A stretch of DNA of 64,000 bases from Helicobacter sp. NHP19-003 (GTDB lineage: Bacteria; Campylobacterota; Campylobacteria; Campylobacterales; Helicobacteraceae): assembly GCF_019703305.1 (NCBI RefSeq), contig NZ_AP024814.1, positions 434,001-498,000 on the forward strand, given 5' to 3'. Shown here one piece after another: positions 47,778 through 52,356 of this stretch. The notes under the pieces were generated by a model, which saw only the letters and a list, made by a program, of their open reading frames with translations, ran no database searches and was not told where the DNA came from. A program made the position numbers and the translations under genes. Position 1 is the stretch's first letter. Each line of letters begins with the position of its first letter.

Positions 47778-50276
47778 TTAATTTGATGGGGTATTTGTGA
47801 TTTTAGCTTGTAATTTCTTCTCAGTTGCGCTTAAGGGGTCGCCACTTTCTAGCACCAAAGCGATGACACTGCAATCGTCAAAGGTCTTTTCTTTGACGCG
47901 TTTTTCTAATAGGGTTTCTAAAGCCCCTTGCACACCCTCTTGCATGCCCGGCACACGGGCGACATTCATGTAATCTTGCAATAGGGGGACTAAAGTACGC
48001 TCTTTGTTTTTGTAAAAGGACTCGCCCGCCCCATCGGACATCAGCACAAAGCCCGTGAAATTCTTCTCGCTTAATTTGCCTTTAAAAATCCGCATGCTAA
48101 AAGGAGCGTCTTTGGAAGTGGTGAAAGTGGTTTCATTGCTAAATGCGCCATTATCCGGGTGGCTTGCCACCTTCAACTCCCGCCCCTTCAACACCCCACA
48201 CACCCCATCGCCCAAGTGCAATAATAAATAATCATCGCCCTGCACCGCCACCGCCAGCAAGGTCGAAGCCAAATCATGCAAAGAGCACGCCTTGTTTTGG
48301 ATGCTGTCATAAAGTTTTTGGAGATTGTCTTTGAGGGTGATTTTGGGGAGGGTGGTGGGGATGATGGATTGATGCCACTCTTGGTTAAATTGTTGTATGA
48401 GGGCTTTTTCTTTGTGTAGGGCGTGTTCTAATTTGCTCTTAGACGCGTCTAGGGGGAGGTTGTTTAAGGGTCTTAAGTCTTTGGTCTGCCAAAGGCTTTG
48501 GGCTTGGAGCTTTTTCACGCCCTCGTGCAAGTGAGCACAACAAACCCCAAATGTCTCTAGGTGTTCTTTTAGGGTTTTTTCTAGGGCTTTTGTCTGCTCC
48601 ACAAAATTTTCTAGCTGTTGTTGGCGTTTCTGTAGGTTTTGCCACTCTTTGGCTTGGCTCTCTAGGGTGTTGGCATGCTCTAAAAATCCCTTGGCTCTAG
48701 GGGCACTTAAAAACTCTTTGGTGGGGGTGGGGGTGTTTAGTCGATCCTTAGACTTTTCTAGGCTCGCACGCACATGGCTAAGGGGTTTTATGGCTTGAGG
48801 GGGCAGGCTTAAATTTAAACTTTGCAAATCGTGTTTAAGTGTTGTGCTGTCTTTGGCGTAAGTTTCATAAAGGGTAAAATCCTTTTGCAAGTTGGCTTTG
48901 GATAAGAGCAGATTTTGCACCCCTGAGAGCGTATAAGGGGGGTTTAGGGCTTTGATTTTGGTTTGCAGTCTGTCCAGCGTGTGCTTTAAATCCCCCTCCA
49001 AATTCAAGACATCGCCTTTTAGACTCTCAAAACGCCTTCTTAAGTGGGTGTATTCTTGTTCTTTAGTGCCCAGTTGCTCTAGCAAGTCTTTTTTATAGTT
49101 TTGGGCGGTGGTGGTGGCTTTTTGGATGTGTGCTTGGATGTCTTGGATGTGCTTTTTATGTTCTTTGCCCCCATTGGTGGTTACAATGTTGCGTAAATCC
49201 TCTAAATTATCCTCATTCCACTCCTTCAAATCAAGCCCATCCACCTTGTCTAAAAACGCCTTATACGCCTCAAAGCAACGCATGATTTGTGCTTTGAGGG
49301 TATTTTTATGGGTTTTCAGAGTGCTTTTGATCCGCTCAGTGCTGTAGCTTTTGAGGTCTTTAGAGGGCAGGTTTAAGGAGGTCAAATTTGGTTTAAAAAC
49401 ATAAGCATTCTTAAGACTATAAAGTTGGCTCTCCACTCCATAGGACTCCTCAGCCTCCATGCCTATAAAATCCAAAAACCCTTGATAACACATTTTAATC
49501 AAACTCTTGCGTTTATTTTTGATTTTATCGATGTGTTCGGCGATTTTGTCCTTGATTTTATAGTAGCGTTTTTCTATGGGGGCGGTTTCCTTGAACAATT
49601 CTTTGATGTTGGCAGCACTAAACAGCGTAAAATCCGCTTCCCTAATCTCTGCTTTTAAGGTTTCTAGTCTGTCTTTAAGTGGGCTAAATCGGAGCTGGTA
49701 AGCCTCGCCGCTAAAGCCCCCTTGTAAATTCTTGATTTTCTCTGCCATGCCCTCTAGGGCGGTTTTAATGGCCCTTTGGGCGTTTTCCTTGCGTCTTTCT
49801 TGATCTTGGCTAAAGCTCTCTTGCACACTTTGCACGCCCTGCATTAAGGGCAGGTGGTGTGCTTCTTGCCACTTTAAAAGCTCTTGTGCTTCCTCTAAAA
49901 GGGCGTTGAAAATGCCCTCAATGTCGCTTTTATCTCTTTGGAGTGTACTTGTCTGTTCTATAGCAAGCTCTTGCAAGGCTTGCAAAATGTGCTCTAAGAG
50001 CGTGGCGCTCATCTTAGCTTGGTTTGGCATGTTAAGGTAGGTTGCAAAGTCTTGGCTTAGCTCTTGTGCCACGACTTCTAAAGTTCTTGCCGCCCCCAAA
50101 TGGGAGAATTTTGCCGAGCCCGCCCCATCGGCTAAACCAATGAAAACACTCTCACCTGTGGTGCCGTAGGTGGTGGGTTTTGGGGGGTAAATTTTATCTT
50201 GGCATGGAGTGGGTGGGCTTTCTAGTGCATGCCCCCTACCCTGCACGGCATGCCCGATGACATACCATTTATCCAT
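47778..50276 (-). CDS. PP2C-type phosphatase split by a long coiled coil (TerY-P / YegK type)
   Basis: 832 residues. The N-terminal 90 hold the first half of a PP2C fold: VQGRGHALES, PTPCQDK (25-28) and the metal motif LADGAGSAKFSHLG (48-61). The C-terminal 165 hold the second half: STLLAVAVQGDDYLLLHLGDG, GFVLMSDGAGESFY and TFDDCSVIAL. Between them lie about 550 residues of heptad-rich coiled coil, for example IKELFKETAPIEKRYYKIKD and FVEQTKALEKTLKEHLETFG. PP2C enzymes remove phosphate from Ser/Thr with Mn or Mg. It is the last gene of a kinase-VWA-phosphatase operon and directly follows the VWA gene. Confidence 0.85.
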   Translation of the reverse strand: MDKWYVIGHAVQGRGHALESPPTPCQDKIYPPKPTTYGTTGESVFIGLADGAGSAKFSHLGAARTLEVVAQELSQDFATYLNMPNQAKMSATLLEHILQALQELAIEQTSTLQRDKSDIEGIFNALLEEAQELLKWQEAHHLPLMQGVQSVQESFSQDQERRKENAQRAIKTALEGMAEKIKNLQGGFSGEAYQLRFSPLKDRLETLKAEIREADFTLFSAANIKELFKETAPIEKRYYKIKDKIAEHIDKIKNKRKSLIKMCYQGFLDFIGMEAEESYGVESQLYSLKNAYVFKPNLTSLNLPSKDLKSYSTERIKSTLKTHKNTLKAQIMRCFEAYKAFLDKVDGLDLKEWNEDNLEDLRNIVTTNGGKEHKKHIQDIQAHIQKATTTAQNYKKDLLEQLGTKEQEYTHLRRRFESLKGDVLNLEGDLKHTLDRLQTKIKALNPPYTLSGVQNLLLSKANLQKDFTLYETYAKDSTTLKHDLQSLNLSLPPQAIKPLSHVRASLEKSKDRLNTPTPTKEFLSAPRAKGFLEHANTLESQAKEWQNLQKRQQQLENFVEQTKALEKTLKEHLETFGVCCAHLHEGVKKLQAQSLWQTKDLRPLNNLPLDASKSKLEHALHKEKALIQQFNQEWHQSIIPTTLPKITLKDNLQKLYDSIQNKACSLHDLASTLLAVAVQGDDYLLLHLGDGVCGVLKGRELKVASHPDNGAFSNETTFTTSKDAPFSMRIFKGKLSEKNFTGFVLMSDGAGESFYKNKERTLVPLLQDYMNVARVPGMQEGVQGALETLLEKRVKEKTFDDCSVIALVLESGDPLSATEKKLQAKITNTPSN

Positions 50277-50964: not shown

Positions 50965-52356
50965 TTAAAGTTGTTGGTGGAATTTATTCAAAGCATCGAG
51001 CCACTTGATCGGGGGGAGGCGTTTTTTAGGTGCAAAAAACTTACCCCCTTTTTGAAAGCTCTCGTAAAAATACTCTTGCAATTTGGGACTGAGGCGTACC
51101 CATTGATCTCGTGCCTTTTCATTGGGCACAAAAGACATGTCCCCTCCCTTTAAGGGGTAGGCGAATGCCCCCTGCCTCATCGCCTCATCTCTGCCTAAGC
51201 CCTTGTGGTTGTAGGGGTGCATGCCCAAAGTGAGGATCACAAACAACAAGCAGGCGATGGCATAGTATTCATCGCTCTTGGTACGCATCACTTGGCTCAT
51301 GTGCTTGCCAGAATGCTCGGGGACGAGATAAGCCGGGTCAGCCACAGGGCAGGGGTATTTGTCCACTTGGTAGCTGTCGCAATCGATGAAAAACATTTCC
51401 GCATTTTGGGTGAACATGAGATTATTGGGGTTGATGTCGCCGATTAAAATCCCCTTGTCGTGCAGAGATTGGGCGGTTTTTAAAAAGCTCATGCACAGGC
51501 GGACAAGGTCCTTTAAATTCCAGTTAGGGATGTGTTGCTTGACATCTTTAGACCCCCCCAAAATATGTTGCAAGGTCTTGCCCTCTGCTTTGGGCATTAA
51601 ATACCCCACGCATTCGCCTTGTTGGTTTTTTAAAAGACAAGTGGGCATACACACCCATTGGTTGGTTTTAATTTTAGTGAGTAGGGCGATTTTTTGGGGG
51701 GTGAAGTCGGGCACGCCCCCGGTTTGCATGCTCTTGTGCTGGTGGCCATAGATTTTGGCGAGCATGGGCGTGTTGGTGGTGTAAATGATCCCCTCGCCGC
51801 CCTGCCCTAACTCTTGGGCGAGCCTTACGCTGTGTTGCTTGCCATTGTGGTCGTAATAGACATCTTGCCCCTCTTGTGGGACTGCACTGATGTGTAATTT
51901 ACCTTGAGAGGTGTGGGGGGTTTTGTGCTTGGGTTTGCTGATGTCCTCTTTGGCTTTAGCAATGTAAAACTCCAAGCGTTTTTTGCTGTTGGAGAGAAAA
52001 AGGATTGTGCTTTGTTTAAAACGGGTAGCGATGTTGGCAAGGGCTGTGTTTCTCGTGAAAAGCAGGTTTTTGGTGGCTTTGATGATTTCTGTGAGTTTGC
52101 CCGGCACGCTGACGATCTCCTTTTGGATGGAAAGATACCTATTGTATGCCTTTTGGTAACGGGCATCGTCTGTGCGTTGGTCGTTGATCCGCTCTAGGAC
52201 ATCTTCGGGGACCCCGATTTTCTTTTGGGTTTTTTGTAGGATTTTTTGGAGGTTGTCTTTGTAGATTTTCCAAAACGCCCCCTCTACAAGTGCACTCTCA
52301 TCGATCAAGAGCACATCGTGGCTTTGGATCAAGGTGGCTAAATCAGGGTTTTGCAT
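50965..52356 (-). CDS. Protein kinase with N-terminal PIN-like region (TerY-P / YegI type)
   Basis: 463 residues. From about 180 a eukaryote-like kinase domain is visible: ELGQGGEGIIYTT (glycine loop), MLAKIYG (lysine), GILIGDINPNNLMF (catalytic loop, Asp and Asn) and FIDCDSYQVD (in place of DFG), then SDEYYAIACLLFVILTLGMHPY. This variant pattern is that of YegI and TerY-P kinases. Residues 10-140 look PIN-like: DVLLIDESALVEG, VPEDVLERI and TILFLSNSKKRLEFYIAKA, although the third acidic position is not clear (NTALANIA). It is the first gene of the operon. Confidence 0.85.
   Translation of the reverse strand: MQNPDLATLIQSHDVLLIDESALVEGAFWKIYKDNLQKILQKTQKKIGVPEDVLERINDQRTDDARYQKAYNRYLSIQKEIVSVPGKLTEIIKATKNLLFTRNTALANIATRFKQSTILFLSNSKKRLEFYIAKAKEDISKPKHKTPHTSQGKLHISAVPQEGQDVYYDHNGKQHSVRLAQELGQGGEGIIYTTNTPMLAKIYGHQHKSMQTGGVPDFTPQKIALLTKIKTNQWVCMPTCLLKNQQGECVGYLMPKAEGKTLQHILGGSKDVKQHIPNWNLKDLVRLCMSFLKTAQSLHDKGILIGDINPNNLMFTQNAEMFFIDCDSYQVDKYPCPVADPAYLVPEHSGKHMSQVMRTKSDEYYAIACLLFVILTLGMHPYNHKGLGRDEAMRQGAFAYPLKGGDMSFVPNEKARDQWVRLSPKLQEYFYESFQKGGKFFAPKKRLPPIKWLDALNKFHQQL

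Follow-up and report, generated by a model that had tools for sequence, protein, structure and literature searches.

A kinase, VWA and PP2C gene triad of the YegI/YegL/PphC type between nfu and pit in Helicobacter sp. NHP19-003

The DNA analysed (the window) is a 64,000-nucleotide stretch of the stomach bacterium Helicobacter sp. NHP19-003 (contig NZ_AP024814.1, positions 434,001 to 498,000). Between nfu and pit it carries three neighbouring genes on the minus strand, encoding a Ser/Thr kinase, a VWA protein and a PP2C phosphatase. With moderate confidence, this block is regarded as an accessory phosphorylation switch of the YegI/YegL/PphC type that has moved horizontally, belongs to a PIN-kinase family and has been rewired in Helicobacter. 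The kinase opens with a PIN domain that has lost its acidic residues, and the PP2C catalytic domain is split by a large helical insert; a preliminary description of the locus, made from the sequence alone, had overlooked both.

Anatomy and conservation of the triad

The three open reading frames (ORFs) were intact, lay exactly where the preliminary description had placed them, and agreed with it in their Pfam classes. The genes and their parts are as follows.

50965..52356, minus strand: gene for a YegI-like Ser/Thr kinase of 463 aa, at the head of the triad (ORF and Pfam Pkinase).
51952..52356, minus strand: N-terminal pseudo-PIN domain of the kinase, aa 1-135 (profile and predicted fold).
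50974..51879, minus strand: catalytic domain of the kinase, aa 160-461 (alignment with relatives).
50277..50957, minus strand: YegL-like VWA gene, 226 aa, with a complete metal-ion-dependent adhesion site (MIDAS; D29-x-S31-x-S33, T98, D135) (ORF and Pfam).
47778..50276, minus strand: gene for a PP2C phosphatase of 832 aa whose catalytic domain is interrupted by a long insert (ORF and Pfam).
49992..50276, minus strand: N-terminal part of PP2C, aa 1-95, with the DGAGS motif (alignment; predicted local distance difference test (pLDDT) mostly about 90).
48342..49991, minus strand: Helicobacter-specific all-helical insert of PP2C, about aa 96-645 (motif spacing and AlphaFold 2 (AF2) model).
47778..48341, minus strand: C-terminal part of PP2C, aa 646-832, with the GDG, SDG and DDCS motifs (alignment and model).

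Pfam matched PP2C_2 in two stretches (E=6e-37) and VWA (E=4e-8), while the Pkinase match (E=3e-5) fell below that family's own cut-off. The preliminary description had named kinase motifs and an intact MIDAS, and the catalytic residues were intact and unchanged across the aligned relatives: K201, D307, N312, D325 and D327 in the kinase, and D29, S31, S33, T98 and D135 in the VWA protein. In PP2C, D50, G51, D690 and D748 were likewise unchanged and D800/D801 almost so. No zinc ribbon, OB fold or further domain follows the kinase domain of the window protein, which stops there. Searches of PDB sequences with the kinase, PP2C and the PIN profile returned nothing informative.

Ratios of nonsynonymous to synonymous substitution (dN/dS) were calculated against Helicobacter heilmannii ASB1 (G012), whose kinase is 95% identical to that of the window. 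The values were 0.10 for the kinase, 0.18 for its pseudo-PIN part, 0.01 for the VWA gene and 0.38 for the PP2C insert. Every part of the triad is under purifying selection, strongest on the VWA gene and weakest on the PP2C insert.

Insertion site and spread in Helicobacter

The flanks of the triad, tal, murE, an HP1493-like gene and nfu on one side and pit, tlyC and tolC on the other, had been named correctly. The proposal that the block interrupts a conserved gene order was borne out when the nfu-pit interval was compared: in 14 genomes of the same genus (11 with nfu 52-59% identical, plus G030, G031 and G032) nfu directly adjoins pit, and nothing intervenes. Since the blocks upstream of nfu and of pit are both kept, the triad was inserted between them. 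These limits, and a repeat that lies inside them, have the following positions.

47720..47743, minus strand: conserved upstream (promoter-proximal) block of nfu, left limit of the insertion (common to genomes with adjacent nfu and pit).
52545..52578, plus strand: conserved upstream (promoter) block of pit, right limit of the insertion (common to the same genomes).
52403..52418, minus strand: octamer repeat upstream of the kinase ATG (GTGAATGG on the plus strand) (comparison with G002 and G012).

The triad occupies the nfu-pit site in the window genome, in H. heilmannii ASB1 and in H. bizzozeronii CCUG 35545 (G004), where the kinase and PP2C genes are frameshifted. Remnants were found at the same site in G002, G010 and G011, and copies at other genome sites in G009, G029, G031 and G006. 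Altogether, relatives or remnants occur in at least 10 genomes of the genus, at several sites, and about half of them are broken or partial; across the family, the kinase was matched in 21 of 121 genomes, many of which have broken copies. The triad is not present in every Helicobacter. It is an accessory element that has been gained, moved and lost. The searches of plasmids and phages gave no sign of a specific vehicle: 52 plasmid records carried a YegL-like VWA, none above 60% identity, and phages yielded three weak records only.

The frequency of broken copies raises the question of a decaying, functionless remnant. For the window genome this is most improbable, the three ORFs being intact, all catalytic residues kept and dN/dS well below 1.

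Restriction genes were found at the same site in two genomes. In G002 (L035:6085-8116) the kinase is intact, and the VWA gene together with the beginning of PP2C has given way to a CfrBI-type restriction-modification pair, an N6/N4 methylase with its CfrBI-type endonuclease. In G014 (L037:6787-16927) the nfu-pit interval holds a different insert of about 10 kb, with Cons_hypoth698 and Sel1 genes, an N-6 methylase and specificity subunits.

The octamer repeat is present in two copies in the window and in G002 and in five in H. heilmannii ASB1; its copy number upstream of the kinase start could affect expression. A promoter scan of the locus gave a signal no better than chance. On the other side of the insertion limit, pit (52603-54202, plus strand) is split into two frames, with a tract of five G at 53107 in the window and seven G in G012 and G002. 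Possible explanations of this tract are slippage (phase variation), a fixed frameshift or a sequencing error.

The PIN-kinase family and its Helicobacter branch

A search with the VWA alignment against one genome per species gave at least 80 loci; the counts that follow refer to those listed. They come from about 11 phyla (Bacillota, Actinomycetota, Pseudomonadota, Planctomycetota and others) and encode homologous proteins, in nearly all cases in the order kinase-VWA-PP2C, as in the window. All three genes were present in 78 of the 80, and a kinase relative lay near the VWA gene in 79. Second triads or extra kinase copies stand side by side at L061, L083, L084, L091, L105 and L112.

Most of the relatives' kinases open with about 200 additional residues, in which Pfam recognised PIN_4 (25/52) or PIN_12 (9/52), and many end in a zinc ribbon (zf_Tbcl 22/52, DZR_2 6/52). 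By a PIN hidden Markov model (HMM), a PIN domain was present in 57 of the 71 non-Helicobacter loci, fused to the kinase in 47 and as a separate gene only in 10. Several Actinomycetota have a PIN gene directly upstream of a PIN-less kinase. Several Bacillota (L063, L064, L066, L106, L110 and others) have an additional gene for a helix-turn-helix (HTH)-PIN-like protein before the PIN-kinase, the HTH part being judged by eye and Pfam finding no family in the one tested. When neighbours were clustered across the 80 loci, no conserved fourth partner other than the PIN genes appeared.

Among the PIN-kinase relatives an intact PIN site, zinc fingers at the C-terminus and a compact PP2C are the usual state, whereas the Helicobacter triads have a dead PIN, lack the zinc finger and carry a PP2C insert of 380-550 aa. 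The N-terminus of the Helicobacter kinase is considered PIN-derived because an HMM match, a profile-profile comparison and the predicted fold agree. A PIN HMM built from non-Helicobacter relatives only matched the window kinase (E=5.5e-4) and that of H. suis (E=1.8e-6), and hhalign aligned the Helicobacter segment with PIN at a probability of 93.6 (E=2.2e-7). An AF2 model made from the Helicobacter rows alone reached a pLDDT of 80, and its Foldseek matches were mostly PIN structures (Utp24, AF0591, SMG5/6) with a probability near 1, E of about 0.005-0.05 and a template modelling (TM) score of about 0.45-0.63. The two highest-ranked entries are labelled archaeal RuvB-like helicases, not PIN; the fold match is supportive and not decisive by itself.

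The acidic residues D-E-D-D are complete in 40 of 45 fused PIN rows outside Helicobacter, and all four are retained in none of the seven Helicobacter rows. In the window the four positions read D, R, gap, N, the first Asp being kept. From this loss of the active site the domain is predicted to be catalytically dead.

A helical insert of about 380-550 residues has been added to the Helicobacter PP2C. Where it could be measured, the distance between DGAG and GDG was 452-640 aa in Helicobacter and about 76-104 in the other loci (the motif pattern accounts for three values of 30 and for some missing values). AlphaFold modelled the ends of the window PP2C at good confidence and the insert as all helix, mostly at low to medium confidence; structures in the PDB matching the model were PP2C phosphatases. 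The PP2C ends and the kinase N-terminus model sensibly, so the refuting case named in the preliminary description, that the domains would not fold as called, did not arise.

C-terminal CxxC motifs are absent from the kinases of all nine Helicobacter/Helicobacteraceae loci and present in 60 of the 71 others; the same-clade kinase of L053 has nothing past its kinase domain and no CxxC. In the kinase tree the Helicobacter kinases form one clade (Shimodaira-Hasegawa-like approximate likelihood ratio test (SH-aLRT) 99). Because of this common descent, loss of the PIN site, loss of the zinc ribbon and gain of the PP2C insert could, judging from the tree, have a single origin.

Related systems and the proposed switch

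The suggested link with E. coli YegI-YegL-YegK (PphC) was upheld. The window VWA is 43% identical to YegL over the aligned length. The kinase is 26% identical to YegI, both lacking HRD and having the unusual GD(I/V)N and DxD motifs, and PP2C is 24% identical to PphC over the aligned part, both with the DGAGS, GDG and DD motifs. The family HMMs matched yegI (E=1e-66), yegL (E=4e-71) and pphC (E=4e-46), the E. coli sequences having been among the HMM seeds. The E. coli order, in contrast to that of the window, is VWA-PP2C-kinase, with yegJ inserted in K-12. YegI is a membrane-bound protein that lacks an N-terminal domain and is extended at its C-terminus, where HHH_5 matches weakly; PphC, unlike the Helicobacter PP2C, has no insert. 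PMC13232886, citing JB.00225-18 and FEBS Lett 2020, reports autophosphorylation of YegI and its dephosphorylation by PphC.

The preliminary description had filed the block as TerY-P type. This holds for its composition: as described in PMC11090510 and PMC4978471, the TerY-P triad (Anantharaman et al. 2012) is a VWA protein, a PP2C and a Ser/Thr kinase encoded together. A C-terminal zinc ribbon is a trait of the TerY-P kinase (PMC11090510); the window kinase has none. TerY-P-like clusters exist in the same genus (L133, L135, L136). They comprise two VWA genes, a PP2C and a kinase, lie close to genes for helicases and coiled-coil proteins, and have many of their frames broken; the kinases of L133 and L135 end in a zinc ribbon. 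They are consistent with the H. pylori TerY-P island (PMC4978471) and with Helicobacter CoCoNuTs, which also have broken frames (PMC11090510). The window triad has, by contrast, one VWA gene and housekeeping flanks. The VWA proteins of these clusters scored far lower with the family HMMs (70-78 bits), and their kinases (three rows only) lie outside the window clade on a long branch with 100% support. The window triad should be called YegI/YegL/PphC-type, and after comparison of architecture and kinase clade its filing under TerY-P was dropped.

PADLOC models barely matched the window proteins (TerY E=0.008; TerY and STK_OB about 0.004-0.008). Its STK_OB/TerY/PP2C system comprises the same three classes, but the window kinase has no OB fold and the model scores are weak. 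A PADLOC defence assignment was likewise dropped, only generic kinase models matching and no system. No McrB/McrC-like or CnuH/CnuE gene, as in type II/III-A CoCoNuTs, stands beside the triad; nfu, murE, tal, pit, tlyC and tolC are there instead. No Ter or DNA/RNA-processing gene was found among the flanking genes, and with housekeeping neighbours the unit is free-standing, as had been proposed. The accompanying remark that no Ter gene is nearby stands with a qualification: two genes of the TerD family, with an HD-domain gene after them, lie about 0.44 Mb away in the same genome (G000:C1:921465-922631; L140: 9459-10655).

A true TerY-P triad that has shed its Ter or restriction partners, acting as a metal-sensing switch for DNA/RNA processing, would account for the three shared protein classes, the zinc ribbons of many relatives' kinases and the distant TerD genes. 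It is considered unlikely in view of the low scores and separate clade of the genuine same-genus TerY-P proteins, the missing zinc ribbon, the weak PADLOC TerY match and the housekeeping flanks. The ribbons of the PIN-bearing relatives nevertheless suggest that this family and TerY-P share an older origin.

A signalling unit with a housekeeping task, such as proteostasis or envelope stress, is also rated improbable: its patchy occurrence, use of several insertion sites and recurrent loss do not suit a core role, even though E. coli yegI adjoins yegD, an HSP70-family gene. Hsp70-like genes also lie near the triads of L075, L083, L091 and L128 (yegD being that of L022). Among 103 adjacent genes examined with Pfam and PADLOC, matches were scattered (DnaJ 5, CARF/HEPN 2, GajB 2; raw counts, no enrichment claimed), and a scan for a J-domain motif gave almost no matches.

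PIN ribonucleases often serve as effectors in conflict systems. Together with the patchy presence, the frequent decay and the restriction-modification genes inside the G002 triad and in the nfu-pit interval of G014, this would fit an antiphage defence module kept at a variable site, and TerY-P-like modules with OB-fold kinases have been reported as antiphage (PMC11090510). The lack of a PADLOC system match for the triad and the predicted death of the Helicobacter PIN domain speak against such a module, which is given somewhat less than an even chance. A phage or stress role of the triad is nevertheless plausible, given that its copies are patchily distributed and decaying and that restriction genes occur at its site.

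In the YegI/YegL/PphC-type switch favoured here, the kinase would phosphorylate itself, the VWA protein, other targets or several of these. The VWA protein would bind a divalent metal through its MIDAS and act as an adaptor bridging partners, or as a substrate, and PP2C would reverse the phosphorylation and so reset the switch. In the relatives the switch would most likely gate or restrain the PIN ribonuclease. In Helicobacter the PIN domain may be kept as a non-catalytic binding scaffold and the helical arm of PP2C may form a new interaction surface; given a dead scaffold and a large arm, the output there is probably binding or assembly instead of RNA cleavage.

Several points weigh against this reading. 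Functional data are confined to the E. coli members of the family, and even for these no inducing condition is known. The evidence for gating of PIN by the kinase consists of fusion and adjacency, and the genes neighbouring the family loci show no clear functional theme. Neither E. coli YegI nor the divergent G006 version has a PIN domain, so the module does not depend on the nuclease.

The triad type has been described before. The literature searched, which did not cover the original 2012 TerY-P paper, contained neither a PIN-bearing family whose Helicobacter branch has a dead nuclease and an enlarged PP2C nor a name or description of the PIN-kinase, VWA and PP2C combination. Tentatively, this combination may represent an undescribed conflict or stress system of many phyla in which reversible phosphorylation controls a PIN ribonuclease, Helicobacter having a derived, non-cleaving form with a dead ribonuclease and a long helical arm on its PP2C.

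The YegI-type family can now be told apart from the easily confused TerY-P/CoCoNuT triads of the same genus. E. coli YegI/YegL/PphC has no assigned role, and the intact PIN on or beside the kinases of most relatives leads to the hypothesis that RNA cleavage is under the control of the switch. With its dead PIN and enlarged PP2C, the Helicobacter branch offers a natural comparison by which the nuclease function could be separated from signalling.

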